From: Glycocaulis profundi
Lineage (GTDB): Bacteria; Pseudomonadota; Alphaproteobacteria; Caulobacterales; Maricaulaceae
Reading direction: 5' to 3'
Assembly (NCBI GenBank): GCA_007050995.1
Contig: VJOU01000003.1
Span: 62,001 to 126,000 of the forward strand
Length of the DNA stretch: 64,000 nucleotides
The notes under the pieces are model-generated. The model did no database searches, had not been told where the DNA came from, and worked only from the letters and a program-made list of their open reading frames with translations. Every line of letters starts with the position of its first letter. The stretch's first letter is position 1. Made by a program: the position numbers and the translations under genes. Below, piece by piece: positions 10,401 through 22,742 of this stretch.

Positions 10401-11252
10401 GGTCTTGGTCCGCGTCTCCACCCCGGGCACGACCTCGCACGCCCCGCACCGCAGGTCCGTCCCCATCCACGCCGTCACCAGCGCCACCGACCGGCAGTTC
10501 GGCAGCCGCGCCTCCAGATCGTCCAGCGCCGCCATCACGTCGCTGTCCGCGCGCAGGGTGTGCACGTTCTCCGCGATCTCCCGGCCCGGCCCCGCCTCGC
10601 GCGTCACCGGCCCTGTCGCATAGGCGAACTCGCCCGACGCGGGGATCAGGCACACCCCTTCGATCAGCTCTTCCATGCGCGGCCCCGACCCGCCGACGGG
10701 CGCGATCACCTCGAAGCTCAGCGACGGAATCCGCGCGCCGTATTCGTCCAGCGGAAAGTCCTCGAACACCGCATAGGCCAGCCCCCGATGGCCCGGCACC
10801 CGCCCCGCCCCCTCCACCGCCTCGATCAGCGGGTCGGGCTGCTGGTCTTCGGTGCCCAGATGAACCCGCATGTTCGCCCTCGACAGGTCCAGCTCCGCCC
10901 CGTTCGCCCACACCCGCCCGATGCCTGAGATCGGCCCCTCGGCGATGCCCACCGCGAAGCTCACCGAATACGAATAGCTCACCGTGGACGGCCCGCCGCC
11001 CTTGCCGCCCGTGCGCTCGCGCCGCTCGTGCTCCTTGAACCGCGCCGCCCAGATCACCTGCCCGGCGACCCGCATCCGGCCATAGACGATGGGAATGCCC
11101 GCCCCTTGCGTGGAGGTCTGCACCTCCAGCTCCGAATGCCGCGGCCCCGTCTGCCGGTCGCGCGCGAACAGCCCGCCGATCAGCCCCTGGGCCAGTCCCA
11201 GCGCCATTCCCCCTGCGAACCGCGCCCCCGCGGCCAGCGTCATCTCCGCCAT
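7428..11252 (-). CDS. g15: GTA gp15, baseplate megatron / host-specificity protein
   Basis: 1274 aa, close to the ~1300 aa of the RcGTA protein. The N-terminal part (about 1-200) is the phage-tail-like region starting with a glycine-rich hydrophobic stretch. The central part (about 210-650) has the GTA TIM-barrel-like domain, with patterns such as DWSEYSGHAPGNGDRFFHLDP and WYAPLSDWRDG. The C-terminal part is the phage tail beta-rich domain. In RcGTA this is the large trimeric tip protein that contacts the recipient cell. It appears intact, and starts 3 bases after the g14 stop. It is the last gene of the cluster. Confidence 0.95.
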   Translation of the reverse strand: MAEMTLAAGARFAGGMALGLAQGLIGGLFARDRQTGPRHSELEVQTSTQGAGIPIVYGRMRVAGQVIWAARFKEHERRERTGGKGGGPSTVSYSYSVSFAVGIAEGPISGIGRVWANGAELDLSRANMRVHLGTEDQQPDPLIEAVEGAGRVPGHRGLAYAVFEDFPLDEYGARIPSLSFEVIAPVGGSGPRMEELIEGVCLIPASGEFAYATGPVTREAGPGREIAENVHTLRADSDVMAALDDLEARLPNCRSVALVTAWMGTDLRCGACEVVPGVETRTKTTRPLEWRAAGLDRQSARLVSQSEGGPASGGTPSDETVIGLIREFKRRGMKVALYPFILMNVPPGNDLADPYGGAEQAAFPWRGRITCHPAPGMAGSPDGSTAAEEQVAEFFGQAQASDFEVSDDGVGYGGPEDWRFCRFILHHAALAAAAGGVDAFLIGSEMRELTRVMGAENSFPAVEALRTLAGQCRALLGPGTRLSYAADWSEYSGHAPGNGDRFFHLDPLWADPQIDFVGIDWYAPLSDWRDGAGHLDALAGAASIYEREYLGANVEGGEGHDWFYASAADRQAQTRTPITDGEHGEPWVWRYKDLRGWWQNAHHDRIGGERMSQPTAWIPRSKPVAFIELGCPAVDKGANQPNVFIDPKSSESFAPHHSNGRRDDLMQRRYVEALLDHWSPEGGRNPVSPVYGGPMLDLSLCHVWTWDARPYPEFPARGDVWKDGENWRLGHWLTGRAGQSPLAAVVEDVCARAGLAPVLTEGLEGVLAGFVIERPRRARDVLGELSGLFGFDLIDRADGTAALPRRTRADAAVDLNNAMREGGGPVWELSRRPLAEAPKAARVGFVEDGGDYRGGMAHALGLDGQVEGRIEVSAPVLADASLAQDWARGVLAGALADGDGLTLTLPPSLSFLEAGDVVVTSGGADGVWRIGALDGLASREAALAGASGRSASVAGPDSGVADPEGPPAPVRPVLACLDLPRGLEDGEARGGLVLAAWSDPWPGPLTVHAGAEADLLEARAEIARPSVMGELTAPLAPGPEGRWDRAGAVAVRLYSGALESVEARSALAGANLLAVEGEAGWEVIGFARAELEAPRLWRLSELLRGLGGSPAEGAPAGARVVVLTGEEAVLPVRDAEAGEALNVVAVPRGRDVSDIAARTVEAVWWQAELRPLSPVHLKAARLAEGWRLSWVRRTRVGGDGWGYGEVPLGEASERYRVQAIDGEGAELGSWSVENSWLEIADAELPEDLDGAVWAVAQVSETAGLGREARVGLAF

Positions 11253-11255
11253 CGC

Positions 11256-11702
11256 TCAGTCCTCCGTGTCTGGAAACACCGCCGCGGCCGCCGCCCGGCG
11301 CCGCCACCACGGCCCCAGCGCCGTCTCGCACACCGCCCGGCCCTGCCAGGCGTGGATGATCCGTTCAGGTGCGCTCAGGATCGCGCAGTGCTTGACCGGA
11401 GACCCCGCCCGCGCCCGGAACAGCAGCACGTCTCCGGGGCGCGCCGCTTCGGGCGCGATCAGCGTCATGTGCCGCCTCGCCGCCTCCAGCAGCGTCTCCC
11501 GCCCCCGCCGCTCGGCCCAGTCGGGGGTGTAGGGCGGCGGCGCCTCGGGCTCTGCGCCGCGCACCGCCCGCCACACCCCGCGCACCAGCCCCAGGCAGTC
11601 CGTCCCGGCCCCCTTCGCGCTGGCCTGATGGACGTAAGGCGTCCCGATCCAGTCGCGCGCCTCGGCGATCACGCGCGCCCGCAGGAGGCTCGGACAGGTC
11701 AT
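11256..11702 (-). CDS. g14: GTA gp14, NlpC/P60 tail peptidase
   Basis: 148 aa. The NlpC/P60 fold carries the catalytic cysteine Cys36 in GTDCLGLVRGVW and the catalytic histidine His105 in PVKHCAIL. The N-terminal ARDWIGTPYVHQAS is typical of GTA and lambda-like tail peptidases. In RcGTA this protein sits in the tail tip and probably opens peptidoglycan during DNA entry. It overlaps the g13 stop by four bases and is followed at once by g15. Both active-site residues are kept, so nothing suggests decay of this gene. Confidence 0.95.
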   Translation of the reverse strand: MTCPSLLRARVIAEARDWIGTPYVHQASAKGAGTDCLGLVRGVWRAVRGAEPEAPPPYTPDWAERRGRETLLEAARRHMTLIAPEAARPGDVLLFRARAGSPVKHCAILSAPERIIHAWQGRAVCETALGPWWRRRAAAAAVFPDTED

Positions 11703-12550
11703 CGCCGGCCCCCGTCCCGCCGCGCCTCGCTGCCCGCATGGCGCAGCAGCACGTCATTGCCCGGCATGTGAGGACATCCGCGGAAGTTGATGAAATTGCC
11801 GAACTTCTCCCGACAGGTATCCGCCCGCCCGTCGCACCCTGCGATGATTTCGAAACTCTCGCCCGGCTGCGGCGCCCGGCGGGCGGCGCCGTCCAGCTCC
11901 ACCCGCCCCGGCTCATGGACGGCCACCCGCGCCTCGCCCCCGCTCCAGACGATCCGCCCTCGCGCGAACCAGCCCGGCGTGAAGCCCTCCAGCCCCGTCA
12001 CGGCCAGCGCCCCGCCCTCCGCCTCGCTCACCGTGCCCGCCCCGCGCCAGGCCGCATCGCTCAGGTCGACGCCGCAGCGCCCGTCGCCCAGCTCCGCGTC
12101 GCAGGCCCGCGCGAACACCCGCCCGATCACCCGGTCCAGCCTCGCGCCCGGCCCCGCCAGGTCCGCGGTGAAGCCCGACGGCCCCCGCCGCACCTGCGCG
12201 ATCTCCCCGGTGAAGGCCCGCCAGAACAGGTCCGGCTCGCTCCAGTCCGTCCGCAGGATCTCCACCCGCGCGCCGTCCCACAGCCCCGCATCCACGTCCT
12301 CGGGCGTGATCCGGTCCGAACTCAGCGCCCCGAACGCCGCGCCCCGCGCGGGCGCCCCCGCCTCGTTTCTCAGCGGCGCGGGCGACAGCTCGCTGGACAG
12401 CTCGAACGCCGTCCCGTCCGCGCTCACGGCCCGGTCATGGTCGGTGAAGCCGAACACCTGCCCGTCCCGGCGCGTCACCCGCCAGCACCAGCACAGCGTC
12501 GTCGCGCCCGACTCCAGGCGCGCTTGAAGTTCAGGATGAATGGGGATCAC
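11699..12550 (-). CDS. g13: GTA gp13, DUF2163 hub protein with Fe-S cysteine set
   Basis: 283 aa, starting at GTG 12550 behind a GAGGAGG ribosome site. It is a DUF2163 tail hub protein related to lambda gpL. The C-terminal half has Cys150, Cys159, Cys239 and Cys246. The 9- and 7-residue spacings inside the two pairs are those of the cysteines that hold the [4Fe-4S] cluster in lambda gpL, as I recall it. A fifth cysteine (Cys259) lies in NFRGCPHMPG. The gene appears intact. The intrinsic terminator of the inserted SRPBCC gene ends only 27 bases before its start. Confidence 0.93.
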   Translation of the reverse strand: MIPIHPELQARLESGATTLCWCWRVTRRDGQVFGFTDHDRAVSADGTAFELSSELSPAPLRNEAGAPARGAAFGALSSDRITPEDVDAGLWDGARVEILRTDWSEPDLFWRAFTGEIAQVRRGPSGFTADLAGPGARLDRVIGRVFARACDAELGDGRCGVDLSDAAWRGAGTVSEAEGGALAVTGLEGFTPGWFARGRIVWSGGEARVAVHEPGRVELDGAARRAPQPGESFEIIAGCDGRADTCREKFGNFINFRGCPHMPGNDVLLRHAGSEARRDGGRR

Positions 12551-12576
12551 GCCCGCCTCCTCGGTCGGCAGAAACG

Positions 12577-12601
12577 AAAAACCCCGGCCAGATGGCCGGG
12601 G
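12577..12601 (-). terminator. Intrinsic terminator after the SRPBCC insert, upstream of g13
   Basis: On the minus strand, an 8-bp GC-rich stem (arms 12594-12601 and 12582-12589, loop 12590-12593) is followed by five T residues (12581-12577). It lies 26 bases after the stop of the SRPBCC gene and about 27 bases before the g13 start codon, so it interrupts the GTA message between g12 and g13. Confidence 0.8.
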
Positions 12602-12627
12602 CGGAAAAGCTCAGCGATGAAAGTGGC

Positions 12628-13191
12628 TTATTCGGAAAAGGCGCCGCAGGGCTCGCGCGGCGCGCGGTGGCATCCCGCCTCCACATAGGGCTTGAGCCGC
12701 GCCTCGATGAAGTGCCGCCACACGCCCTCGACCACGCCCGCGACCTCGGCATCCACTTCCCCGGCCATCGCCAGCTCCACGGTGAAGGCGGTCGCACCGT
12801 CCCGGTCCTCCAGCATCCAGCTCGTGACCATGTCGAAGGCGTAGCCCGACAGGCCCAGCGGCCCCTGCATGCGCAGCGCGCTGGGCCGGCTGACATAGAT
12901 CACCGTCGCGTGCAGCGCCCCGTCATCGCTGCCCTCGCGGAAGCGCTCATAGAACTGCCCCCCGAAGGCGGGCTCGATGACCAGCTCGGCGGGGTTCTCG
13001 GCGAAGGAATGGTCCCACCACCCCGTCACGTCGCCGGTGGCCGCGCCGAAGACCTCTTCGCGCGAAGCGTCGATCTCGATGGTGAAGCTCGCGCGGTATC
13101 CCTGGGGCGTGAACCCTCTCGGTCCCGCGCCGGGGCGCGCGTCTGCGGCCTGGGCCAGGGCGGCGGCGCTGAGCACTGTGACGAGGATCAT
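12628..13191 (-). CDS. Secreted SRPBCC-family protein inserted in the GTA cluster
   Basis: 187 aa with a short signal-like N-terminus (MILVTVLSAAALAQA). The mature part is a START/AHSA1-like SRPBCC domain: FTIEIDASREEVFGAATGDVTGWW near residues 36-60, then an anti-parallel beta region and a long C-terminal helix (about 150-175). SRPBCC proteins bind hydrophobic ligands; the ligand here is unknown. It is not part of the canonical RcGTA set, yet sits between g12 and g13 on the same strand and ends in its own terminator. Its base composition is like its neighbours. I read it as an acquired passenger gene. Confidence 0.82.
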   Translation of the reverse strand: MILVTVLSAAALAQAADARPGAGPRGFTPQGYRASFTIEIDASREEVFGAATGDVTGWWDHSFAENPAELVIEPAFGGQFYERFREGSDDGALHATVIYVSRPSALRMQGPLGLSGYAFDMVTSWMLEDRDGATAFTVELAMAGEVDAEVAGVVEGVWRHFIEARLKPYVEAGCHRAPREPCGAFSE

Positions 13192-13234
13192 GACCCGACT
13201 CCCTGAAAACTCTTTGCAATCTCGCGCGCGCCGC

Positions 13235-13857
13235 TCAGGTCTGTCCAGCCTGAAGCCGGACCTCGATCAGCGGCACGCTGGCCGCCTGCCCCGCCTCGAA
13301 CCCGTCCAGCGCCAGTTCCAGCCGGTCGGTGTCGAACCGCGCAGGCGTGTCGAACAGATAGCCCGCCGTGATCTCCGCGCCAGCCTCCGGCGCGAAATCG
13401 AGAACCGCCGCCCCGTTCTCCAGCGAAACCGCCGCCTCCACCCCGTCCACCGCCACCCGCACCGTCCCCGGCACGGGCAGCGCGATGGCCCGCTCATAGG
13501 CGTCCGGCCCGGCGCCATAGCGCTTGATCAGGGCAAAGACCGTCCGCGTCCCGACCCGCTGATCGCCCGGTCCCGGCTCAACGGACGGCGCGCAGGACCT
13601 GTGATCGAGCGGGTCGCGGAACCGGAAAGCGTAGAGAGACGACCGCGCCTTGCTTCGAAAAACGCGACTAGATCGGAAAGTTCGTCCGCTGACCGCACCC
13701 CCGGCCCCGCGTCCCAGCGCCTGCGCGAATCCGCCCACGGACTGTTGCGCTCCTCCCGGCCCGAGGCCAGCTCGACCACCTCGGTCAGCCTTTCCGGCCC
13801 GCCCCGCGCGCCGAAGCCCGGCGCGAAGGGGAATGTCACGTCATGAAATCCGCTCAA
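13235..13857 (-). pseudogene. g12: GTA gp12 (DUF2460 distal tail protein), frameshifted
   Basis: The N-terminal half reads from TTG 13857 (overlapping the g11 stop as TTGA) through GFHDVTFPFAPGFGARGG to LVAFFEARRGRL. The C-terminal half continues in another frame from LYAFRFRDPLD to the stop at 13235. The family has one continuous junction, FFEARRGR-LYAFRF. On the minus strand the join reads CGTCTCTCTAC where CGTCTCTAC would keep the frame, so one extra TC unit (near 13633-13639) breaks the gene. The total of 623 bases is two over a multiple of three; removing the unit gives 206 aa, the normal length. No slippery heptamer is visible. A sequencing error remains possible. Confidence 0.85.
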
Positions 13858-14357
13858 AGCTGTCCGCTCCCCTGCCTGACCGCGCGGGCCACCGCCGCCG
13901 CGATCTGATTGTGCGACCGCCGCGCCGCCGCGCCCGCATCGCCGCCGCCCGCGTTTATCGTCACGTTGACCACCGCAGCGCCGCCCGCGGGCGTGATCCC
14001 GCCCGACCGGCCCGGCGTGAAAATCTCCGGCCCCCGCTCCCCCACCAGATAGCGCTCACCGCCCAGAACCGGCCCGCCTTCGGCCCGCGCGCCGATCACG
14101 GCGCCCGCGCCGGAAAACGCAGACGAAAGAAGACCTTCCAGCGGTCTTGTCACCGCCTGCTCGACGGCCAGCCGCGCCAGCGAGCCCAGCATGCTCTCCA
14201 CCATCCGCTCCATGGACAGCGCCCCGCTCCGGCCCGCCCGTTCCATGGAATCGGAGATGGATCGCGCCGCCGTCTCGAACGCCGCGCCCACCCGGTCCGC
14301 CGCCTCTTCGGCGGACTGCGTCGCGCCCTCCATCCCGTCCTCGCTCCAGCCCGTCAT
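13854..14357 (-). CDS. g11: GTA gp11, short tape-measure protein
   Basis: 167 aa from the ATG at 14357, which has GGAG seven bases before it. Upstream in-frame starts (14393, 14459) lie inside or next to the 94-bp repeat and are not credible. The protein has a helical middle (about 20-90) and ends with the family pattern EGGPVLGGERYLVGERGPEIFTP followed by a Gly/Ala-rich stretch, as in phage tail tape-measure C-termini. RcGTA gp11 is ~220 aa, so this copy is short at the N-terminus, perhaps because the repeat entered there. It sets tail length in intact GTAs. Confidence 0.82.
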   Translation of the reverse strand: MTGWSEDGMEGATQSAEEAADRVGAAFETAARSISDSMERAGRSGALSMERMVESMLGSLARLAVEQAVTRPLEGLLSSAFSGAGAVIGARAEGGPVLGGERYLVGERGPEIFTPGRSGGITPAGGAAVVNVTINAGGGDAGAAARRSHNQIAAAVARAVRQGSGQL

Positions 14358-14388
14358 GCCCGCTCCAATCTCCCCTTCACCAAACCCC

Positions 14389-14482
14389 GTCATCCCGGCC
14401 AAGCGCGTCAGCGCGCCGAGCCGGGACCTCGCCGCATGCATCCAGAGGTCCCGGATCACGCCTGCGGCGCGTCCGGGATGAC
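14389..14482. repeat. Palindromic interspersed repeat, copy 1 (94 bp)
   Basis: The element is bounded by the perfect inverted ends GTCATCCCGG and CCGGGATGAC, with nested inner palindromes (CCGGGACCTC against GAGGTCCCGG). It shares its ends and most inner blocks with copy 2 at 20270-20359. It fills the space between g10.1 and g11. Confidence 0.85.
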
Positions 14483-14486
14483 TGGA

Positions 14487-14663
14487 TCAGGGCTCGTCCG
14501 GATGCGCCGTCATCAGCCGCGCCAGTTCATCCCGCCCCGGCGGCGCGTCCCCGGCCCCGCCCGCCAGCGCCCGCCATTCGGCCACGCTCAGCTCCCAGAA
14601 CGCGCGTGGGCTCAGGCCCAGCCGCACCGCCAGCCTCAGCCAGCCCGCCCAGCGCGGGCTCAC
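14487..14663 (-). CDS. g10.1: GTA gp10.1, small tail assembly chaperone-like protein
   Basis: 58 aa from GTG 14663, which overlaps the g10 stop as GTGA. The sequence shows SPRWAGWLRLAVRLGLSPRAFWELSVAEWRAL and ends RDELARLMTAHPDEP. This matches the RcGTA-type small protein (TIGR02216-like, rcc01693) that always lies between g10 and the tape measure. Its stop is five bases before the repeat element. The role is presumed by analogy with phage tail assembly chaperones. No defect is visible. Confidence 0.87.
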   Translation of the reverse strand: MSPRWAGWLRLAVRLGLSPRAFWELSVAEWRALAGGAGDAPPGRDELARLMTAHPDEP

Positions 14664-14944
14664 GCGAACGCCCGCTCGAAGGCCAGCGCCACCGCCCGCG
14701 CCGCCTCGCCCGGCGCCACCTTCAGCGCGACCGGATCGACCGCCTCGCCCCCGCCTTTCGCCAGCGCGCCCAGCACCAGCGCCAGATCCGCCGCCCTCAT
14801 CCGCCTCAGCCGGGCGCCCAGCGCCTCGAGGCCCTCCGCGCCCAGCCCGCTCTCGATCTCGGCCAGCGCGCCCAGCGTCAGGCACAGCGTCACCGTGCGC
14901 CCGCCCGCCTCCAGCGCCACCTCGCCCCGCTCGGCGTTCGCCAT
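14660..14944 (-). CDS. g10: GTA gp10, tail assembly protein
   Basis: 94 aa from the ATG at 14944, with AGGAG twelve bases upstream. The alternative ATG at 14971 has no ribosome site. The sequence begins ANAERGEVALEAGGRT, contains LCLTLGALAEIESGLG and a mainly helical C-terminus, as in the GTA family protein between the major tail protein and the small chaperone gp10.1. It overlaps gp10.1 by four bases. Upstream, the order to g9 is broken by a plus-strand lipoprotein gene. Confidence 0.88.
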   Translation of the reverse strand: MANAERGEVALEAGGRTVTLCLTLGALAEIESGLGAEGLEALGARLRRMRAADLALVLGALAKGGGEAVDPVALKVAPGEAARAVALAFERAFA

Positions 14945-14980
14945 CGCGCGTCTCCTGTCCGTGTTGTTCATGATTGCCCG

Positions 14981-15008
14981 TTGCGCCGTTCCGCGCGTTG
15001 TCTAGGCT
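14981..15008 (+). promoter_or_regulatory. Possible promoter of the inserted lipoprotein gene
   Basis: A TTGCGC -35-like element (14981-14986) and a TAGGCT -10-like element (15003-15008) are 16 bases apart, about 32 bases before the lipoprotein start. It is a weak match judged by eye only. Confidence 0.25.
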
Positions 15009-15040
15009 TCACGCCGAGGCCAATCAGGGGACCGACACTC

Positions 15041-15238
15041 ATGCGCTATCTTTTCGCCGCCGCCCTCGTCCTGCCGCTCGCCGCCTGCGCGGGCATGTTC
15101 GAGGACGACATCGCCGAGCGCTGTCAGGGTCTGGAAGACCCGGTGCAGCAGCAGGAATGCTACGAAATGCTCGAGGCCGAACGCGCCGCGCGCGAAGCCC
15201 AGGGCGCCCAGCAGCCCGGCCCGGAAATGCCTCAGTAG
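15041..15238 (+). CDS. Small lipoprotein inserted between GTA g9 and g10
   Basis: 65 aa, opposite in direction to the GTA genes. The signal peptide MRYLFAAALVLPLAAC ends in the lipobox LAAC with Cys16 as the lipidated residue. The rest is short, acidic and helical with two more cysteines (Cys29 and Cys40), and ends in a Gln/Pro-rich tail. AGGGGA stands 11 bases before the ATG. No such gene exists in the canonical RcGTA cluster. Its stop is one base from the g9 stop (convergent). Function unknown. Confidence 0.8.
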   Translation: MRYLFAAALVLPLAACAGMFEDDIAERCQGLEDPVQQQECYEMLEAERAAREAQGAQQPGPEMPQ

Positions 15239-15239
15239 G

Positions 15240-15647
15240 TCAGACCGGCTCGAATTCGAGCCGTCCGGCCGAGGCCAGCGAGATCGAGTAGGCCGCTTCC
15301 CCGTCATGGCGCCCGGAATATTCCAGCGCCGTGACCAGGAACGGCCCCTCGATCCGCCCGAAATCGGGCACCACCAGGCAGAAGCGCGGCGCGGCCTGGT
15401 CGAAGAAGACCTGCCGAATGCGCGCGTCCGCCTCCGAGTCCACGAAAATCCCCGCCCCGGTCACGCTCGCCGAGCGCACACCCGCGCCCGCGATCAGCTC
15501 GCGCCACCGTCCGGGGCTGTCCGCGTGGGTGGCGTCCACCGTCCGCGCGTTCAGCGAGATCGTCTTCGCCCGCAGCCCCGCCACGGTGACGAGCCCCGCC
15601 CCGTCCTCGATCTTCAGCAGCATGTCCCTGCCGGCCTGAGCCGCCAT
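15240..15647 (-). CDS. g9: GTA gp9, major tail protein (TP901-1 family)
   Basis: 135 aa. The N-terminal pattern AAQAGRDMLLKIEDGAG and the later ISLNARTVDATHADSPGRWREL are typical of the TP901-1-like major tail protein that builds the GTA tail tube. AAGGAGAG precedes the start. The gene is full length. The intrinsic terminator of the 59-aa gene upstream ends only about 20 bases before its start, leaving no room for a promoter in between. An 18-bp perfect palindrome (15246-15263) lies in its 3' end. Confidence 0.93.
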   Translation of the reverse strand: MAAQAGRDMLLKIEDGAGLVTVAGLRAKTISLNARTVDATHADSPGRWRELIAGAGVRSASVTGAGIFVDSEADARIRQVFFDQAAPRFCLVVPDFGRIEGPFLVTALEYSGRHDGEAAYSISLASAGRLEFEPV

Positions 15648-15664
15648 CGCCCTCTCCTTCGCGC

Positions 15665-15696
15665 AAAGAAAAAGCCGCCCGGCGAGCCGGGCGGCT
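15665..15696 (-). terminator. Intrinsic terminator after the 59-aa gene, upstream of g9
   Basis: On the minus strand, a 10-11-bp stem (arms 15686-15696 and 15673-15683) is followed by TTTTTC TTT (15673-15665). It sits 29 bases after the stop of the 59-aa gene and about 18 bases before the g9 start, with the g9 ribosome site directly behind it. Confidence 0.85.
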
Positions 15697-15724
15697 GAAA
15701 CGTGTCATCAGTTCACGATGGGCG

Positions 15725-15904
15725 TCAGCGGCAGCGATGGCCCTCGACGGTCACCGACCGCACATTGCCTTCACCGCAGGTCTCGACGGCCTTCCCCGCC
15801 ATCGATGCGACCCGCGCGCTGTCCTTCAGCCCCATTCCCATCAGTCCGGCCGCGGCCAGAGTCAGTCCCACGCCGATCATCGCGATCATCCTGGCCGGTT
15901 TCAT
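15725..15904 (-). CDS. 59-aa membrane/secreted small protein
   Basis: 59 aa, from an ATG at 15904 behind a GGGAGG ribosome site. The N-terminal ~26 residues (KPARMIAMIGVGLTLAAAGL) form a signal peptide or membrane anchor. The remaining part is short, with two cysteines in ETCGEGNVRSVTVEGHRCR at the C-terminus, which could pair in the periplasm. It lies between the g8 remnant and g9, is not part of the canonical GTA set, and is followed directly by its own terminator. I do not recognise the family. Confidence 0.7.
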   Translation of the reverse strand: MKPARMIAMIGVGLTLAAAGLMGMGLKDSARVASMAGKAVETCGEGNVRSVTVEGHRCR

Positions 15905-16021
15905 GATCCCTCCCGATCATCAGCCGCCCCGTCATGCGAGGCCGGTCGCTGGGCCGGGCAGCATGACCCACCGGTCTGCGGGGTCAACGCCCGCGCCCGA
16001 CTTTTCCACAATCCGGGGTAA

Positions 16022-16390
16022 TCACGCCGTCCGCTCCAGCAGCGCCCGCACCCGCACCACGCCGCCCATGGTCCGTCCGTTCCCGCTCTCAAACGCGTCC
16101 GAGTAGACGACCCGGCACATCACTGCGCGCCAGCCTCCGCCTGCGATCTCCGCTCCGTGCAGCGCCTCGCGCACCGCCCCGACCGCCGCGCGCAGGCCCT
16201 CCCGGTCCTCCGCCCGCGCCCGGATCAGCAGCGTCAGCCGGTGATCGACCAGCCCCGCCCCGTCCGCGTCGAAGGGCTCCGTCCGGCTCCGCCCGCAGGC
16301 CAGCCAGGGGAAGGCCGCCCCGCCCGGCGGCGCGTCCGCCGCGCCAGAGCTGAACAGATCAGGGCCAGCGGCCCTGAAAAGTGAGCGCTC
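16022..16390 (-). pseudogene. g8: GTA gp8 (DUF3168 tail terminator) remnant without a start
   Basis: The minus frame reads AAFPWLACGRSRTEPFDAD, DHRLTLLIRARAED and ends GGVVRVRALLERTA at a TGA (16022-16024); this matches the DUF3168 tail-terminator family of GTAs. The N-terminal ~20-30 residues and any ATG, GTG or TTG start are missing. The frame runs back without interruption to the TAG stop of the capsid gene (16391-16393), so capsid and g8 are in frame with a single amber codon between them. The neck genes g6 and g7, which normally lie here, are absent. A deletion from the g5/g6 junction into g8 explains all this. Confidence 0.85.
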
Positions 16391-17602
16391 CTACCCTTCC
16401 GCGAACTTCAGAAGCTTGATCGCCTTGAAGTCCTGCACGCCGCCGCCCACACGTTTGGTGGTGTAGAACAGCACGTAGGGCTTGGCGCTGTAGGGGTCGC
16501 GCAGCACCTCGATCCCCTGCCGGTCGACCACCAGATAGCCGCGGCGGAAATCGCCGAACGCGATGGCGGTCTGGCCGACGCCGATATCGGGCATGTCCTC
16601 GGCTTCGGTGACCGGATAGCCCATCAGCGAAGCCTCCGCGCCCGCCTCCAGCGCCGGCCGCCACAGATAATTGCCGTCCGCGTCCTTCAGCCTGCGGATG
16701 CGGCTGACCGTCTGGCGGTTCATCACGAACCGCCCATTGGCGCGATAGGCCGCCGCCGGGGCGTAGATCAGCTCGATCAGGGCGTCCGCGGGGTCGTCGG
16801 CGGCGAAATCGCCCTCCGCCCCCGTCACCACATGGCCCAGCTCGCCCCAGCCTTCGGTCCCGTCCGGCTCGGTCGGGTAGCTCAGGAAGCCCCTGGGCTT
16901 GTCCGCGCCGTCGCCGCTGACGAAGGCCTTGCCCTCGGCCTCGGCGAACACGTCGCGCACCTCCTCGGCCAGCCAGCGGTCCACGTCCACCAGCGCGTCG
17001 TCCAGAATGGCCGGCGTCGCGGCGGGCATGGCGTAGAGCTCGCCCACCGGATAGGCCTCCAGCGCAAGCTGGGGCGTGGCGCTCTCGGTGCGCGGCCCCG
17101 TCTCGGCGGTCCAGCTCGCGGTCAGCCCGCCCAGGCTGACCGGCTTGCGGAACGTGTGGCTGGTGGTCTGGCGCACCGTGGCGATGGCGCGGATGGGCGA
17201 GACCTCCGCCAGCATCCGGCTGATCAGCGCCTCGGTCTCGGGCGGGGCGACATAGCCGCCGTCCGGCCCGCTTCCGCCCGACAGCGCCTTGGCCTCCAGC
17301 CCCGCCTCGCCGCGGCGCATGTAGGCGGCGAAGGCGGACTTGCCCTCGCCCGGCGCGTCGCCGCCCAGCGCGGGCCGGCCCGCCTCCAGCACCATCCGGT
17401 CCAGCGCCGCCTTCTGCCGGGTCAGGGCCGCGTCGATGCGCCCGACCTTCTCCTCCAGCAGGGCGTCCGCCGCCCCCTTCGCCTCGATCTCCTCGAGCCG
17501 CCGGTCATTGGCGTCCTTGAAGCTCTCGAAGGCGCACAGCATCTCGGCCATCGCCTGTCGCGCGCCGGTGTCCGGCGCGGCCGTCTTGGTTTCACGCGTC
17601 AT
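16391..17602 (-). CDS. g5: GTA gp5, HK97-type major capsid protein
   Basis: 403 aa, full length. An N-terminal coiled-coil scaffold-like region (about 15-100) precedes the HK97 fold, with SGGSGPDGGYVAPPETEALISRML-like and SPIRAIATVRQTTSHTFRKP-like stretches, and ends AYSAK-type and VQDFKAIKLLKFAEG. GTA maturation cuts off the N-terminal region with gp4. The last codon is followed by TAG and, in frame, by the g8 remnant. TAGGAG overlapping the stop looks like the ribosome site of the lost g6. Confidence 0.96.
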   Translation of the reverse strand: MTRETKTAAPDTGARQAMAEMLCAFESFKDANDRRLEEIEAKGAADALLEEKVGRIDAALTRQKAALDRMVLEAGRPALGGDAPGEGKSAFAAYMRRGEAGLEAKALSGGSGPDGGYVAPPETEALISRMLAEVSPIRAIATVRQTTSHTFRKPVSLGGLTASWTAETGPRTESATPQLALEAYPVGELYAMPAATPAILDDALVDVDRWLAEEVRDVFAEAEGKAFVSGDGADKPRGFLSYPTEPDGTEGWGELGHVVTGAEGDFAADDPADALIELIYAPAAAYRANGRFVMNRQTVSRIRRLKDADGNYLWRPALEAGAEASLMGYPVTEAEDMPDIGVGQTAIAFGDFRRGYLVVDRQGIEVLRDPYSAKPYVLFYTTKRVGGGVQDFKAIKLLKFAEG

Positions 17603-17653
17603 GGAAAGTCCCTCTTCCCGCCTGTTGAAATGATTGATGGTTCTTCCGGCCCG

Positions 17654-18094
17654 TCAGGCCGGTTCCAGCACGCGCAGCCGCGCGGCCTGGAGCATGGGGA
17701 AGGTCACGATGGACACCTCCCACAGATCGAGTTCGAGCAGCTCCCGCCCGCCGCCGGGCCGGGGTTTCGCGCGCACGGTCCTGAACCCGATGGACAGCCC
17801 GTCCACCGCGCCCTGGCCCACCAGCCCCGCCGCCGCCCGCCCGCGCGGTCCGGCGTCCAGTATCCGCCCCCGCACGAACAGGCCCCGCCCGTCCTCGCGG
17901 ATCTCGTCCCACACGCCCACCGGCTCGCCCGCGTCGTGCTGGAACAGCATCCTCACGCCCTTCGAGCCCCGCCGGATCAGGCTGGCGGCGAAGGCGCCGG
18001 GCCGGACCACGTCCCCCGACCCGTCCGCCGCGCCGAACACGCTGGCATGCCCGGCCACCTCGAGCGCCCCGCCCGAGCCGTCATCGGTCCGCAT
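17654..18094 (-). CDS. g4: GTA gp4, HK97-family prohead protease
   Basis: 146 aa from the ATG at 18094, behind GGGGAG. The fold is the herpesvirus/HK97 prohead protease. Conserved pieces are EVAGHASVFG near residue 12 (no catalytic role assigned), MLFQHDAGEPVGVW with the likely catalytic His near residue 53, GLSIGFR with the likely catalytic Ser near 99, and LLELDLWEVSIVTFPM. It matures the capsid. It lies 51 bases from the capsid gene. The terminator of the g3.5-position gene ends about 23 bases before its start. Confidence 0.93.
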   Translation of the reverse strand: MRTDDGSGGALEVAGHASVFGAADGSGDVVRPGAFAASLIRRGSKGVRMLFQHDAGEPVGVWDEIREDGRGLFVRGRILDAGPRGRAAAGLVGQGAVDGLSIGFRTVRAKPRPGGGRELLELDLWEVSIVTFPMLQAARLRVLEPA

Positions 18095-18116
18095 CGGCCG
18101 ATCTCCCCTGTGTTGG

Positions 18117-18147
18117 AAAAGAAAAGGGCGGGGATCGCTCCCCGCCC
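18117..18147 (-). terminator. Intrinsic terminator after the g3.5-position gene, upstream of g4
   Basis: On the minus strand, a 9-bp stem (arms 18139-18147 and 18126-18134, loop 18135-18138) is followed by TTTTCTTTT (18125-18117). It begins four bases after the stop of the 81-aa gene. It is the third such hairpin inside the cluster. Confidence 0.8.
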
Positions 18148-18150
18148 GCC

Positions 18151-18396
18151 TCACCCGTCGCCCAGCCGGCGCTCGATCCGGTCGAGCGCGGCGCGCGTGT
18201 GCGCGGCGTGCTCCTCCAGCCGCGCCATGCGCTCGTTGACCGGCCCCATCGCCTCCACCCGCGCCTCCAGATGCCGGATGCGCTCGCCCGTCGCCCCCGC
18301 CCAGATCAGCGCTCCGGCCGTCTGCAGCGCGATGGCCACCACCACGCCCAGCGTCACCTGACGCTCGAACCGCCACCCCGTGTCCCGCTCGCTCAT
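18151..18396 (-). CDS. Small membrane coiled-coil protein at the g3.5 position
   Basis: 81 aa. It has a membrane helix (about 13-34, VTLGVVVAIALQTAGALIW) and then a heptad-like helical segment (EARVEAMGPVNERMARLEEH and onwards). It occupies the place of orfg3.5 in RcGTA, between portal and protease, and a small gene of this kind is common there; similarity to a specific g3.5 protein cannot be claimed. Its own terminator follows at once, so it shares the passenger-gene layout of two others in the cluster. Confidence 0.72.
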   Translation of the reverse strand: MSERDTGWRFERQVTLGVVVAIALQTAGALIWAGATGERIRHLEARVEAMGPVNERMARLEEHAAHTRAALDRIERRLGDG

Positions 18397-18599
18397 GTCT
18401 TCCCTCCGATGAAAATACTCACCTCGTTGTGACCTGGGCTGGGAGAATCCGCCTTTGAACAGATCGAGTTATGCTTCGCATTCACCGCCTGTTCGCAACA
18501 TGGCTGAATCCATTCCCTCAGTTTCCACTTGCTCTTTGCCGGTTTCCGCCAACTCTGTGCGCGCCATGCTTGATGGCGTCCCGCGCCGAGGAGGCGTCG

Positions 18600-18977
18600 A
18601 TGAAAGCCGCATTGATCTCAGGACTGACCGCGCTCTGCCTGCTCGCCCCGGCCGCTTCGGCTCTGGACGAGCATCCTTTCGCCCTGGCCATCGGCAACAC
18701 GATGGTGGGCACGTATGAGACCGGCGAGGTGGTCTCCGTCTCGTTCCATGCCGACGGCACCACCTCCATGGTCTTCCCCGACGGCTCCCCGCACACCGGC
18801 CACTGGATGGCCAATGAGCGGTATTTCTGCCTCGTCAACGACGCGGAAGACATCGACCTGGCCGACCGTATCCGCTGCGAGGAGAACCACACCGCCGGCA
18901 AGGCTCTGGGCGAGTCCTGGACCCAGACCGACAGCTACGGGTCCACGGTCGAAGTCGTGGTCAACGAAGGTCACTGA
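18600..18977 (+). CDS. Secreted 125-aa protein inserted between GTA g3 and g3.5
   Basis: 125 aa from the ATG at 18600, with GAGGAGG seven bases upstream; longer in-frame starts give no leader. The signal peptide is KAALISGLTALCLLAPAASA, then a small beta-rich domain with GNTMVGTYETGEVVSVSFHA, GHWMANERYFCLV and two cysteines. It is read against the GTA genes and its last seven bases overlap the 3' end of the portal gene. It is absent from the canonical cluster. The pattern recalls small lipocalin-like or DUF995-type secreted proteins (GTW...Y-like), but I do not assign a family. Confidence 0.78.
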   Translation: MKAALISGLTALCLLAPAASALDEHPFALAIGNTMVGTYETGEVVSVSFHADGTTSMVFPDGSPHTGHWMANERYFCLVNDAEDIDLADRIRCEENHTAGKALGESWTQTDSYGSTVEVVVNEGH

Positions 18978-20122
18978 CCCGGCGCGGCGGCTTCCAGTCC
19001 CAGAAGCCGCCGTTTCTCCGCGTCGGAGAGGAAGTCCGCCTCTCCCACCCGCTTCCAGCGCGTCATGCGCTCATCGCCCAGCGCGCTGACGGCGTCCTCG
19101 TCCACGTGCAGCCCCGCTTCGCCGGGCAGCCAGGCCGACAGCCACCCGCCCAGCGCCGCCGCCGTATTGCGCGCCAGCGGCAGCACCGTCTGGCGGTAGA
19201 AGGCGTGGTTGGCCTCGCGATAGTTCGAATAGGTGTTGTCCCCGGGCAGCCCCAGCAGCATGGGCGGCACGCCGAAGGCCAGCGCGATTTCGCGCGCCGC
19301 CTCCCGCCGCGCCTCGATGAAGTCCATCTCCGCAGGCGTCAGGCTCATCGGCTTCCAGTCCAGCCCGCCTTCCAGCAGCAGGGGCCGTCCCGCGTTCGCC
19401 GCGCCTGAATGCAGGGTCTCCAGCTCGGCCTTCAGCCGGTCGAACTGATCCTCGCTGAGCCGCGCCTCGCCCCCGTCCCGGCCCGTGACCACCAGCGCGC
19501 CCGAAGGCCGCGCCGCGTTGTCCAGCAGCGCCTTGGCCCAGGCCCCGCCCGCGTTGTGGACGTCCACCGCTCGCCCCGCGGCCTCCAGCGGCGGCAGGCC
19601 GTAATGATCGTCGGACGGGTTGAAGAGGCGCATGTGCAGCACGGGGCTGCGCCCGGTCGCCCGGTCGCGATGCAGCACCCGCCGCGTCTCGCCCGAGCGG
19701 TATTCCCAGCCATCCGCCCAGCCGCGCGGTCCGGGCAGCACCCGCACCCGGTCGGGGCGCAGCGCGAAGATCGCCGCCGGCCCCTCCATCCCCTCGGCCA
19801 GTTCCAGATAGGCGTTGCCCGCCACCTGAAGATGCCCGTGGAACATCTCCATCAGCTCACAGCCCGTCTGGTCGGGGTTGGGCCGGGCCAGCAGCCCCCG
19901 CATCGCCTCCCCCGCCCGCCCCTCGCCGTCGGCCACCAGCGGCGCCGCCGCGGCGGCCTCCGCGATCAGGCGCACACAGCGATGGGCCACCGCGTTGCGG
20001 CCATACCCCTCGCGGGCCAGCGCGCCATAGTCGCGCGCCGTCCACCCCGCCCGGGGCGCCCAGTTCATGGCCACGACCCGTCCCGCGGCCTTGCGCTCAA
20101 GGCCGAGCCATCGTTTCAGCAT
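18971..20122 (-). CDS. g3: GTA gp3, HK97-family portal protein
   Basis: 383 aa, the full length of GTA portals. Features include VAHRCVRLIAEAAAAAPL near 45, LLARPNPDQTG, HLQVAGNAYLEL, a VLHMRLFNPSDDHYGLPPLEAA segment near 165-185, and IALAFGVPPMLLGLPGDNTYSNYREA near 290-315, all typical of HK97 portals. The portal ring passes DNA and joins head to neck. It appears intact. Its 3' end overlaps the inserted plus-strand gene by 7 bases. Confidence 0.95.
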   Translation of the reverse strand: MLKRWLGLERKAAGRVVAMNWAPRAGWTARDYGALAREGYGRNAVAHRCVRLIAEAAAAAPLVADGEGRAGEAMRGLLARPNPDQTGCELMEMFHGHLQVAGNAYLELAEGMEGPAAIFALRPDRVRVLPGPRGWADGWEYRSGETRRVLHRDRATGRSPVLHMRLFNPSDDHYGLPPLEAAGRAVDVHNAGGAWAKALLDNAARPSGALVVTGRDGGEARLSEDQFDRLKAELETLHSGAANAGRPLLLEGGLDWKPMSLTPAEMDFIEARREAAREIALAFGVPPMLLGLPGDNTYSNYREANHAFYRQTVLPLARNTAAALGGWLSAWLPGEAGLHVDEDAVSALGDERMTRWKRVGEADFLSDAEKRRLLGLEAAAPGQ

Positions 20123-20376: not shown

Positions 20377-21645
20377 TCACAAAACCCGCACCCGCGGCTC
20401 CGCTCCAGCGTCGGTCAGCGCGGCCAGCGCCCAGACCAGCGCGTCCACGCGGTCGGGGCTGCCGGTGAAGTCCGGCGCGCCGAACCCGCACATCTGGTCT
20501 TCCAGCGCTGGACTCCGCACCGCGTGGCGCACCCGCCCGGCGGCATACAGCGCCGCGGCCGGCTCGGCCCTGGCCCTTTTGCCCCGGCTGGCATGGACCA
20601 GCCGCACCGGCAGGCCGGGACACGCCGCCTGCAGCACCGCGCGCACCATCTCCCCGCCCTGGTTGGCTTCGGCGATCACCCGGTCGGCGTCATGGACTTC
20701 GAACGCCGCCGCCACCGCCAACGCCCAGCCCTCGGGCCGGGCGGACAGCGAGCGGTCGGCCAGCACGGCGAACCGCGCCGCCCGGCCCCGGCCTTCCGCG
20801 CCCGCCACGATGATCCCGCATTCATCCCCCGTCGCGCTGGCGGGCGGGTCGACCGCCACCACCACCCGTTCAGGCTCGAAACCGGGCAGGCCCAGCGCCG
20901 CGTCGACCATCTCCCGTGTCCACAGCGCGCCTTCGGGGTCCTCGATCAGAGCGCCTTCCAGCTCCTGCCGGGCCAGCCGCGAGGCGCCATAGGCGGCCGT
21001 CATGGCCTCGATGAAGCCCGGCGCCAGATTGTCCGCATTCTCCGCCGTCGCCGCCCGCGTCGTCACCACGCCCGGCCCGGCCAGCAGGCGTTTGAGCGCC
21101 GGGATGGGCCGCGGCGTGGTGGTGATCATCAGCCGCGGATCGGCCCCCAGCCGCAGTCCCATCCTCAGCGTGTCCAGCGTCGCCTGCGGATGGCGCCACG
21201 CGGCGAACTCGTCCGCCCAGGCCGCGTCGAACTGCGGCCCGCGCAGCCCCTCGGGGTCTTCGCCCGAGAAACAGTGCGCCACCGCCCCGCACGGCCAGAC
21301 CAGCCGCCGCCGCGAGGGCTCGAAGCGCGGCGTCTCCGCCGCCATCCCCACGTTCAGCAGGCCCGACGCCCCCTCCACCATCACCTCGCGGACATCCGCC
21401 TGCCCCGCCCCGATCAGGGCGATGCGCCTCTTTCCCGCCTTCACCTGCGCGCGCACCCATTCGGCCCCGGCCCGGGTCTTGCCCGCGCCGCGCCCGCCCA
21501 GAAACACCCAGACCCGCCAGCCGCCCTGAGGGGGCAGCTGGGCGGGCCGGGCGTACAGGCTCCAGGCCGAATGGGCGTTCAGCGCCTCAACCGGACTGAG
21601 CTGCGGCGCGAGCGGCAATTTCGGATCGAACACGCGCCTGGACAT
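20377..21645 (-). CDS. g2: GTA gp2, terminase large subunit
   Basis: 422 aa from the ATG at 21645; a longer frame opens at 21684 but lies deep inside g1. The ATPase domain has Walker A GGRGAGKTRAGAEW (about residue 50) and Walker B/adaptor region FDAAWADEFAAW. The C-terminal RNase H-like nuclease shows VVAVDPPAS, IAEANQGGEMVR and GSPDRVDALVWAL. In RcGTA it packages host DNA by headfuls. It overlaps g1 by 59 bases. The gene looks complete, so packaging capacity is not the part lost here. Confidence 0.95.
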   Translation of the reverse strand: MSRRVFDPKLPLAPQLSPVEALNAHSAWSLYARPAQLPPQGGWRVWVFLGGRGAGKTRAGAEWVRAQVKAGKRRIALIGAGQADVREVMVEGASGLLNVGMAAETPRFEPSRRRLVWPCGAVAHCFSGEDPEGLRGPQFDAAWADEFAAWRHPQATLDTLRMGLRLGADPRLMITTTPRPIPALKRLLAGPGVVTTRAATAENADNLAPGFIEAMTAAYGASRLARQELEGALIEDPEGALWTREMVDAALGLPGFEPERVVVAVDPPASATGDECGIIVAGAEGRGRAARFAVLADRSLSARPEGWALAVAAAFEVHDADRVIAEANQGGEMVRAVLQAACPGLPVRLVHASRGKRARAEPAAALYAAGRVRHAVRSPALEDQMCGFGAPDFTGSPDRVDALVWALAALTDAGAEPRVRVL

Positions 21646-22012
21646 AGTCTTCGATCTCCTCCAGCACCTGTTCCAGCGCCGCATCGCTCATCGACATGGC
21701 TTCGAGCCGTTCGCGCCGCCGCTGCGCCTCCAGCGCCTCTCCGGCGCGCACCACCGCGCTCACCGCCCTGGCCTGCCGTTCCGCCTCCCCCGCTTCGCCC
21801 CGCGCCAGCGCCGACAGCGCCGGCTCAAGCCGCGGGTCGTCACACCCCGGTCCGGCGAACACCATGTCCTCGCCCAGCACCCGCCGGGCCGCGTTCAGGC
21901 TCTCGCGCAGATAGCTCACCCCCATCCCATGACGCTTGGAGAGGCCCTCGAGGCTCGCCCCCGCCCGCCACGCCGCATAGATCGCCCGCCAGGGCGTGTT
22001 CTCTTTTCCCAT
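21587..22012 (-). CDS. g1: GTA gp1, terminase small subunit
   Basis: 141 aa from the ATG at 22012 (GAAGGGA nine bases upstream); an earlier in-frame ATG at 22066 adds a low-quality N-terminus. The N-terminal pattern GKENTPWRAIYAAWRAGASLEGLSKRHGM has a helix-turn-helix, and an acidic/helical C-terminal region follows (about 75-135). In RcGTA the small terminase lacks strong sequence specificity, which gives random packaging. It is the first gene of the cluster. The 143-base gap upstream has only weak promoter-like elements. Confidence 0.87.
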   Translation of the reverse strand: MGKENTPWRAIYAAWRAGASLEGLSKRHGMGVSYLRESLNAARRVLGEDMVFAGPGCDDPRLEPALSALARGEAGEAERQARAVSAVVRAGEALEAQRRRERLEAMSMSDAALEQVLEEIEDYVQARVRSEIAARAAAQSG

Positions 22013-22155
22013 GTCTCGATCCCTTCTTCCCGACTGTGCCAATCCTAGCCCGGCCCAACCGTCCACCGGATTGAAAGCACAGACTTTTCAGCAAGCTGCG
22101 GCAGTATATGGGAATTTTTTCCTGAAACCGGGGGAGAGCGGAGGCGGCTGTCCCC

Positions 22156-22491
22156 TCAATCGCGTTCTTTTCCGCCCAGAGCCGCCAGCCGCGCGGGCAG
22201 ATCGGCGCGCGCATGGACGAAATCGGCGATGCTGACGGCATCGGCGGTCTGCACGAAAACGATGAAATGCATCCCGCAGCGCATGAACCGCAGATCTTCG
22301 GCGATGTCCGGCGCGAACAGCTCGCGGCAGCTCCGCGACAGGGCTGCGCCTTCGGCCAGCGACCGGCACGCCGCGATCAGCTCATCGCGATACGCATGCG
22401 CCTGCCTGTCGCCGAATGTCTGGCGGGTCCAGACCGCGATGGAAGACAATGACCGGGCCGCCCGGCGCGACAGCCGGACCTCACGCGCCAT
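22156..22491 (-). CDS. parE: RelE/ParE-family toxin
   Basis: 111 aa. The ParE fold is seen in VRLSRRAARSLSSIAVWTRQTFG, the central SLAEGAALSRSCRELFAPDIAEDLRFMRCGMHFIVFV and the C-terminal IADFVHARADLPARL. ParE toxins poison DNA gyrase. It overlaps the antitoxin stop as ATGA and lies 143 bases before GTA g1 on the same strand, so transcription could run from the TA pair into the GTA genes. The C-terminal IADFVHARADL matches the usual ILGVLHQRMDL-type end of the family. Confidence 0.9.
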   Translation of the reverse strand: MAREVRLSRRAARSLSSIAVWTRQTFGDRQAHAYRDELIAACRSLAEGAALSRSCRELFAPDIAEDLRFMRCGMHFIVFVQTADAVSIADFVHARADLPARLAALGGKERD

Positions 22492-22742
22492 CAGGACGCG
22501 GGACCGTCGAACGCCCTGCGGATCGCGTCTTCGGCCGTGCCGTCCGCGAACTCGCCCCGGCGGATCTGGTCCAGCCCCTCCAGCACGCCCGCCCGCGCCG
22601 CTTCAAACTCCGCCTCGTCCCGTTCGAGCAGGCGAAGCCCGGCCCTCAGCGCCTCGCTGGCGTTCTGGAACCGCCCCGAGCGGACCATCCGGTCCACCAG
22701 CGCGGACTGGGCATCGGTGAGCACCACGTTGCGCGTGACCAT
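22491..22742 (-). CDS. parD: ParD-like antitoxin
   Basis: 83 aa from the second of two adjacent ATG codons (22742), which puts AGGAGG five bases away; the first (22745) is too close to it. A ribbon-helix-helix N-terminus (VVLTDAQSALVDRMVRSGRFQNASEALRAGLRLLER) is followed by a helical toxin-binding tail ending IRRGEFADGTAEDAIRRAF. It would bind its own promoter and neutralise the ParE partner. The frame is open to 23054 upstream, but that part is GC-rich intergenic sequence. Confidence 0.9.
   Translation of the reverse strand: MVTRNVVLTDAQSALVDRMVRSGRFQNASEALRAGLRLLERDEAEFEAARAGVLEGLDQIRRGEFADGTAEDAIRRAFDGPAS

Follow-up and report, generated by a model that had tools for sequence, protein, structure and literature searches.

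A head-tail gene cluster of the RcGTA type, the type of gene transfer agent (GTA) known from Rhodobacter capsulatus and Caulobacter crescentus, runs on the minus strand from position 22066 to position 7428 of the window, by which we mean the whole 64,000-nucleotide (nt) stretch analysed here (positions 62001–126000 of contig VJOU01000003.1, from the 3.6-Mb draft genome of Glycocaulis profundi, family Maricaulaceae). Four genes interrupt this cluster; they code for an SRPBCC/AHSA1-like protein of 187 amino acids (aa), a 65-aa lipoprotein, a 59-aa product and a predicted 125-aa secreted protein. We consider it likely that the four are moron-like passengers and part of a pattern running through the lineage, with certain joints between GTA genes, above all the gp8-gp9 joint, serving as cargo slots. 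Phage morons, such as bor and lom of lambda, are small autonomous genes lying between structural genes, often coding for envelope proteins. A preliminary description of the window proposed that the four genes were inserts of this kind. The four open reading frames (ORFs) were confirmed at the coordinates and on the strands given there, and each lies between GTA genes recognized by Pfam or homology, the SRPBCC gene between gp12 and gp13, the lipoprotein gene between gp10 and gp9, the 59-aa ORF between gp9 and a gp8 remnant, and the 125-aa gene between x3.5 and the portal gene. That the inserts interrupt genes adjacent in relatives was borne out by joint lengths. In the same-genus cluster L034, gp8-gp9 is 31 nt and gp9-gp10 9 nt; the portal-x3.5 joint ranges from 14 to 20 nt within the genus and from -7 to 60 nt across the family clusters measured; and gp12-gp13 is 102–318 nt in the same genus and 8–16 nt in several Maricaulis.

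A capsid query against 137 family genomes, G. profundi included, matched 100, and the GTA cluster regions of 80 other genomes were compared, several of which run off contig ends. Core genes were placed with hidden Markov models (HMMs) built from the surveyed clusters, and other genes were found with a home-made caller. A joint was scored as filled when it exceeded the 10th percentile of its group by more than 300 nt, a gene of at least 50 aa in a joint was called a passenger, and a core gene was counted as readable when at least 75% of it lay in one frame. Clade A, as defined here, unites six genera: g1 (that of the window), g7, g12 (which appears to be Maricaulis), g14, g15 and g19, with 38 clusters including that of the window. 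All 15 core genes (gp7 excepted) are readable in one frame in 21 of the 38; the remaining 17 include clusters truncated at contig ends and others, that of the window among them, in which a core gene is gapped or poorly covered. Passengers were found in 32/38 clade-A clusters, and in 19 of the 21 fully readable ones. Filled joints were gp8-gp9 (16/36), capsid-gp6 (15/35), gp12-gp13 (10/34), TerL-portal (9/35), portal-protease (8/37) and gp9-gp10 (5/34), and never protease-capsid (0/38), gp6-gp8 (0/35), gp10-gp11 (0/34), gp11-gp12 (0/34), gp13-gp14 (0/33) or gp14-gp15 (0/33). Which joints are filled and which closed is consistent across species, and for two of the window's inserts relatives have the gene at the corresponding joint. 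Orientation relative to the GTA genes is nearly constant for each joint in clade A: sense at gp8-gp9 (22/24) and gp12-gp13 (8/8), antisense at capsid-gp6 (19/21, one exception being a gp6 piece) and gp9-gp10 (9/10).

The slots in use change with the lineage. Among the 41 clusters of other genera, genus g4 excluded, gp8-gp9 was filled in 0/39 and gp12-gp13 in 0/37, and 17 of the 21 called extra genes lay between TerL and portal; the two g4 clusters hold cargo at further joints, including protease-capsid. The TerL-portal joint of g2, g3, g5, g6, g11, g16 and g17 regularly carries a 143-aa family, in part together with a DUF2726 protein. At capsid-gp6, Maricaulis and g7 have antisense genes for small membrane proteins (L051, L064, L066, L067, L069, L070 and others); six of them, in Maricaulis, form one family, and the two Maricaulis proteins searched gave no Pfam match. 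In a further set of 71 named loci, most of them from Rhizobiales or Parvularculaceae, gp8-gp9 was filled in 16/66. In 15 of these 16 the joint holds an antisense gene, by eye of one MFS family, which Pfam confirmed for L140. A TacA-GNAT pair occurs at gp8-gp9 in two of the 71 loci (L181 and L191), a ParE/ribbon-helix-helix (RHH) pair at gp9-gp10 in L155, and other joints are long there as well, e.g., gp10-gp11 in 24/62.

The gp8-gp9 slot combines varied cargo with a recurring terminator. The 16 filled clade-A slots hold a DUF4760 gene in eight clusters (L032, L033, L040, L045, L051, L059, L062 and L065), toxin-antitoxin (TA) pairs in six (HicB-like in L035; DUF4258 plus MqsA-like in L036, L038, L044, L050 and L053), and in the remaining two either membrane proteins (L039) or the 59-aa ORF (the window). 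A terminator-like hairpin was present in 16/16 filled versus 1/20 unfilled joints, and lay within 140 nt of gp9 in 14/16 versus 1/20. Whatever the cargo, those 14 have a GCCGCC/GGCGGC-T element 26–53 nt 5' of gp9 (ACCGCC/GGCGGT or a mix in three Maricaulis clusters), and the window's slot terminator recurs, identical or nearly so, before gp9 in 13 other filled loci, behind unrelated cargo. The other 37 clusters (605 kb) contain the motif GCCGCC..GGCGGC-TTTT 13 times and the 64-kb window contains it once, at the slot; no copy was found in 126 kb from 13 other chromosomal regions, and the motif is therefore not common background. One base pair of the stem shows a two-sided change, in two sequences, which is slight support for the hairpin. 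L035 and L036, of the same genus with core synonymous divergence (dS) of 0.16–0.35, carry different cargo, the HicB-like pair and the DUF4258-MqsA-like pair, in front of the same terminator, and the flanks of their slots are 83–100% alike in 60-nt windows. Two close species thus carry different cargo at gp8-gp9 between similar flanks, and the terminator usually stands just before gp9. A divergence peak beside the slot was considered as a trace of recombination, and was too unsteady across pairs to serve as proof; in the pair L061/L065, dS is 0.96 for gp8 as against 0.36 for gp6 and 0.52 for gp9. At gp12-gp13 a terminator was found in 6/10 filled joints, and L052 has the terminator without an SRPBCC gene.

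Two of the four window inserts have relatives at their own joints. The SRPBCC protein matched Pfam AHSA1 with E 3.3e-4 and 21.3 bits, just below the 22.1 cut-off; its structural model has a helix-grip fold (mean predicted local distance difference test score 73.6), with COXG, Aha1 and START-type proteins as the best Foldseek matches in the PDB (template modelling score by query 0.33–0.55 among the matches listed), and the model places the insert in the SRPBCC/AHSA1 superfamily. The gene is present in 25/137 genomes, i.e., in 24 besides that of the window (E ≤ 1e-10), and is absent from the other five genomes of the same genus. It sits at gp12-gp13 in the window and nine relatives (eight of the 80 clusters, plus genome G090), and also in L234, a GTA cluster from the viral-contig collection. 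In the remaining 15 genomes, mostly Maricaulis, it lies elsewhere, as far as seen outside a GTA cluster, and all 13 regions fetched (13/13) are without any GTA gene. The SRPBCC tree was too poorly resolved to give the direction of a move between chromosome and GTA. The SRPBCC terminator has similar counterparts (CCCCGG..CCGGGG-T) in L045, L053, L055 and L060, and in L052. A weak Rfam anti-hemB match (window 12574–12668, minus strand, 29.6 bits against a gathering cut-off of 49.5) spans this terminator and probably reflects the hairpin alone; in the four clusters compared with Rfam, no match exceeded the gathering cut-off.

The lipoprotein gene gave ten strong family matches by HMM, of which nine (the window and eight genomes) are antisense at gp9-gp10 and the tenth is a second copy elsewhere in G092. 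Eight of the nine joint matches (seven of the eight other genomes) are rows of the alignment and match by construction. An HMM built without the window's lipoprotein nonetheless ranked it first among 1117 window ORFs (E 3.5e-4), and Cys16 of the lipobox, Cys28 and Cys40 are invariant in eight sequences. Plain tblastn missed these relatives, which were recovered with gene calls plus the HMM. None of the 80 family clusters gave a match to the other two inserts at any joint. For the 125-aa protein, the search of 136 other family genomes yielded just three relatives, all weak (E 2e-6 to 1e-3), which resemble it at the N-terminus and in the core. The 59-aa ORF, searched by tblastn in the 80 clusters, gave no match there and has a low coding score; it is the least certain gene of the four. 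It is also the sole window insert to reach the promoter-like score, with a weak TTGACC-16-CATGCT upstream. When the set was compared across the family, as the preliminary description had proposed, the SRPBCC and lipoprotein genes were thus common to relatives at the same joints and the 59-aa and 125-aa genes were not, which leaves no single coherent set. Nor did the same genes recur at the same joints in all relatives, as they should if they were lineage-wide GTA genes; their patchy presence rules that out.

The traits of passengers were counted for the 77 found in clade A and g4. By a crude hydropathy rule, 50/77 are exported or membrane proteins, as compared with 31/149 flanking genes; counted by family the figures are 29/41 versus 15/42 (p = 0.002). 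The preliminary description credited all four window inserts with an export signal or N-terminal anchor. The lipobox (LAAC) and the signal peptide of the 125-aa protein are canonical to the eye and the N-terminus of the 59-aa product is hydrophobic; that of the SRPBCC protein is hydrophobic but has no basic residue. The window copy passes a stricter crude export rule, and fewer than half of nine GTA-borne SRPBCC copies do. As a defining trait, moreover, export fails, TA pairs being common cargo in relatives. A terminator within 110 nt downstream was found for 18/42 sense passengers and 0/35 antisense ones, compared with 24/548 core genes (11 of them the capsid gene) and 8/149 flanking genes. 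Both sense inserts of the window, the SRPBCC gene and the 59-aa ORF, have a terminator and none was found at the two antisense inserts. The asymmetry between sense and antisense fits moron logic, although where an antisense gene touches or overlaps its neighbour, as both of those in the window do, there is no space for a terminator. Capsid-gp6 joints have a sense terminator-like hairpin of their own in 14/37 clusters of clade A and g4 and 18/41 of other genera; it is perhaps an attenuator that sets the capsid dose. Passengers average 62.0% GC, core genes 68.3% and flanking genes 63.8%; the window's inserts have 65–71%. The ratio of nonsynonymous divergence (dN) to dS was 0.03–0.51 for core genes, mostly below 0.35, in nine species pairs, and 0.08–0.38 for passengers in nine comparisons. 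By this measure the core genes of cargo-bearing clusters show purifying selection.

These observations can be joined in a simple scheme. While the GTA is off, each passenger would be transcribed by itself. A sense passenger would then need a terminator, since otherwise its own transcription would enter the downstream tail genes; an antisense passenger would not. Upon induction of the GTA, a processive anti-termination complex of the GafZ type, postulated by analogy, would read past the slot terminators, and this read-through would let the cluster tolerate its cargo. Cargo could be exchanged by homologous recombination in the conserved GTA genes on either side. In the window, the GTA machinery would have decayed with the passengers still open.

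The moron interpretation has partial support. The inserts lie at joints that are short in relatives, and passengers of this lineage are mostly exported or membrane proteins by the crude rule and frequently have terminators when sense, but several points weigh against our interpretation. Antisense passengers lack a terminator and so miss the strict definition of a moron. Promoter-like scores were reached by 14/77 passengers, 10/548 core genes and 19/149 flanking genes, that is, more often by passengers than by core genes, which are mostly operon-internal, and hardly more often than by ordinary genes. Some called passengers are doubtful, e.g., one of 52 aa in L056 that is a fragment of a split gp6, and the filled gp12-gp13 joints of L035 and L040 are without a clear gene. 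Passengers decay too, the SRPBCC gene of G088 being split across two frames. The survey counts are phylogenetically non-independent, and clade A was delimited post hoc, without a species tree. Finally, outside the family the use of joints differs, with long protease-capsid joints in some clusters. In a class-wide sample of 20 clusters, gp8-gp9 reached 300 nt in none of the 19 measured (maximum 231), and capsid-gp6, portal-protease, gp12-gp13 or gp14-gp15 are long in some. Because gp8-gp9 is short class-wide while other joints are long, the joint pattern is lineage-specific.

Three other explanations were weighed. The inserts might be ordinary accessory genes of this lineage's GTA, retained for GTA function because their products form part of the particle or assist it or its release. 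That the SRPBCC and lipoprotein genes keep joint and orientation across species, that pairs of both have dN below dS, and that the lipoprotein is almost confined to GTA clusters would suit such a role. We nevertheless consider it improbable, given the patchiness of the SRPBCC gene and its residence in 15 genomes away from the GTA, its absence from the rest of the genus, the unrelated cargo found in one slot across species, the frequent terminators of sense passengers, and the open state of the window's passengers despite the loss of gp6. The preliminary description had also allowed that the genes simply used a decaying locus as landing space, decay coming first and neutral insertions after. 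In favour of such landing are the clearly broken state of the window cluster and the two inserts, of four, that occupy no joint in the 80 relatives. As a general account it is not supported, given the cargo of 19 of the 21 readable clade-A clusters and the purifying selection on core genes. Six of twelve joints never hold cargo, which is unexpected for neutral insertion, and the SRPBCC gene occupies the same joint in relatives in which all core genes are readable (L045, L048, L055 and L060). For the two shared inserts, SRPBCC and lipoprotein, the data already run counter to decay as the cause and we reject it; for the set as a whole, landing in a dying locus is quite unlikely. Lastly, the small ORFs might be chance ORFs or annotation noise and no genes at all, high-GC DNA being rich in spurious ORFs and the 59-aa ORF having neither a homologue found nor a good coding score. 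With conserved homologues for the SRPBCC protein and the lipoprotein, and three weak relatives sharing the N-terminus and core of the 125-aa protein, this is very improbable.

If passengers they are, they resemble phage morons in lying between genes adjacent in relatives, in often coding for envelope proteins and, when sense, in often having a terminator. They differ in that the carrier is a domesticated GTA without preferential packaging of its own genes, in that antisense copies have no terminator, and in that TA pairs are frequent cargo. Their carriers share with the RcGTA type the gp2-gp15 gene set and order and homologous capsid, portal and tail proteins; unlike that type, the six genera have no gp7 match and bear cargo at fixed joints, and the window copy is broken. 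Terminators within a GTA operon that require read-through are known from C. crescentus, where GafZ anti-termination passes terminators inside the cluster (PMC11150451); there the terminator follows the first gene and is regulatory, whereas the ones described here follow cargo genes. Insertions among head-tail genes at certain loci are described in RcGTA-related phages (PMC11409702); those lie in phage genomes, and the carriers here are bacterial GTA clusters, with slots in which cargo types recur. The TA cargo is like type II TA modules (HicAB, DUF4258-MqsA, TacAT, ParDE) in consisting of adjacent or overlapping pairs, and differs by its home inside GTA operons. Among the open-licence papers listed, a scope that leaves most subscription papers outside, we found no description of passengers or TA pairs in GTA clusters; term look-ups in PMC10883770, PMC6821227, PMC9836097 and PMC13236601 returned nothing on such passengers. 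A search on DUF4760 and the EGTxR motif described below likewise gave nothing on passengers or TA pairs in GTA clusters among the open-licence full texts listed.

It has been argued (PMC6209664) that the persistence of GTAs needs another benefit. GTAs may have a second role, as carriers of exchangeable host genes. More tentatively, and with considerable doubt, we suggest a cargo-platform role for GTA clusters in the Maricaulis group, with fixed slots whose resident terminators are neutralized by processive anti-termination and with exchangeable genes of host benefit or addiction, such that TA pairs and DUF4760/EGT(S/N)R genes would make loss of the locus costly. If so, GTA loci would persist for a reason independent of gene transfer, and the embedded cargo, TA pairs above all, would be a concrete candidate for what shields the locus from deletion. 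Cargo alone would not keep the particle genes working, and the window has just this state, with cargo open and particle genes broken. The slots predict anti-termination in this lineage, and offer a natural system for following cargo exchange at one joint between close species.

The cargo of relatives includes type II TA pairs by the criterion of adjacent or overlapping gene pairs with toxin or antitoxin Pfam domains. L181 and L191 have TacA plus GNAT and L155 has ParE plus RHH; L036 has DUF4258 plus a helix-turn-helix (HTH) protein whose MqsA-like similarity is below the MqsA cut-offs; and L035 has a HicB-like antitoxin whose partner is HicA-like by eye only. The MqsA-like antitoxin gave nine family matches, of which six belong to GTA clusters (in L059, from Maricaulis, the gene is at TerL-portal); in a tree the six GTA copies group apart from two found elsewhere, the ninth, a weak match, having been left out. 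A perfect palindrome, TATCACGGTGATA, lies 5' of the DUF4258 toxin gene in the TA cassettes of L036, L050 and L053, and a variant differing by one base (by eye) in the related cassettes of L038, L044 and L059; the palindrome is likely to be an autoregulatory operator. For DUF4760, 9/25 family matches are in the gp8-gp9 joint, eight seen in fetched clusters and one (G077) placed by position; its tree has very long branches, and 10 of 12 non-GTA regions gave rows, L320 and L324 being dropped. In L033, L045, L051, L062 and L065 the DUF4760 gene is preceded by a tiny ORF of EGT(S/N)R repeats, e.g., MKFCQTNIEGTSRIEGTSR, followed by a terminator-like hairpin; the cassettes of L032, L040 and L059 are without this ORF. 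Across the 4.7 Mb fetched (partly overlapping loci), the double motif followed by a stop was found at six separate sites, all in GTA clusters, and by eye the third codon positions vary silently. The EGT(S/N)R ORF and the gene for the DUF4760 membrane protein are possibly an undescribed two-gene system, possibly one of defence or a TA system. A phage origin of the cargo was looked for in viral-contig scans, which reach close relatives best. No relative turned up there with the DUF4760 query; the MqsA-like query gave six weak matches, spanning the HTH region, and the SRPBCC query two contigs, both GTA clusters, one of them the window's own. The EGT(S/N)R pattern was found in two contigs, L242 and a record already counted as L243.

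Features of the GTA cluster and its inserts in the window (coordinates are window positions).
Feature	Position	Strand	Remark
GTA gp15	7428..11252	-	homology and synteny in relatives
GTA gp14	11256..11702	-	homology/synteny in relatives
GTA gp13	11699..12550	-	homology/synteny in relatives
Terminator-like hairpin directly 3' of SRPBCC gene	12581..12602	-	9-bp stem and T run
SRPBCC/AHSA1-like protein, 187 aa, hydrophobic N-terminus	12628..13191	-	gp12-gp13 joint, sense to GTA
GTA gp12 (DUF2460)	13235..13857	-	Pfam; frameshifted, two overlapping frames
GTA gp11, tape measure	13854..14459	-	Pfam Tape_meas_lam_C
GTA gp10	14660..14971	-	homology/synteny in relatives
Lipoprotein, 65 aa	15041..15238	+	gp9-gp10 joint, antisense
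GTA gp9, tail tube	15240..15647	-	Pfam Phage_tail_2, E 8e-43
Slot terminator 5' of gp9	15673..15696	-	10-bp stem and T run
59-aa ORF, hydrophobic N-terminus	15725..15904	-	gp8-gp9 slot
GTA gp8 remnant (Tail_completion_gp17)	16022..16384	-	without first ~35 codons; gp6 missing between remnant and capsid
GTA gp5, major capsid protein	16391..17602	-	72-74% identity to same-genus clusters
GTA gp4, prohead protease	17654..18097	-	homology/synteny in relatives
x3.5, 81 aa	18151..18396	-	regular GTA member of family, in 76/80 clusters
Secreted protein (predicted), 125 aa	18600..18977	+	portal-x3.5 joint, antisense; 7-nt overlap with portal 3' end
GTA gp3, portal	18971..20122	-	homology/synteny in relatives
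GTA gp2, large terminase	20377..21684	-	homology/synteny in relatives
ParD (22491-22742) and ParE (22156-22491)	22156..22742	-	Pfam ParD_antitoxin 5e-11, ParE_toxin 2e-10

The window's cluster keeps the gp2-gp15 order and the majority of the genes, and is clearly broken: gp8 has lost its N-terminal codons and gp12 is frameshifted by two extra bases. A same-genus gp6 query gave no match in the entire genome of G. profundi, a weak negative given that the search had no positive control, and gp7 had no match in the window cluster. It is unlikely that this copy produces particles that package random host DNA. The gp7 HMM matched in 0/38 clade-A clusters, some of which are cut short, and gp6 and gp8 adjoin or overlap there; to judge by these gene complements, either the task of gp7 in the particle is done otherwise in clade-A GTAs, or these GTAs differ. 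The x3.5 gene, which has a terminator-like hairpin 3' of it, was considered as a fifth insert and ruled out by its presence in most family clusters. An 11.2-kb stretch identical to part of the window is filed as a viral contig in IMG/VR (IMGVR_UViG_2889428501_000002, our L235), a decayed GTA cluster that probably comes from the same assembly as the window and so gives no independent check of the gp12 frameshift. Directly upstream of gp1, outside the GTA cluster proper, the window carries the ParDE pair.

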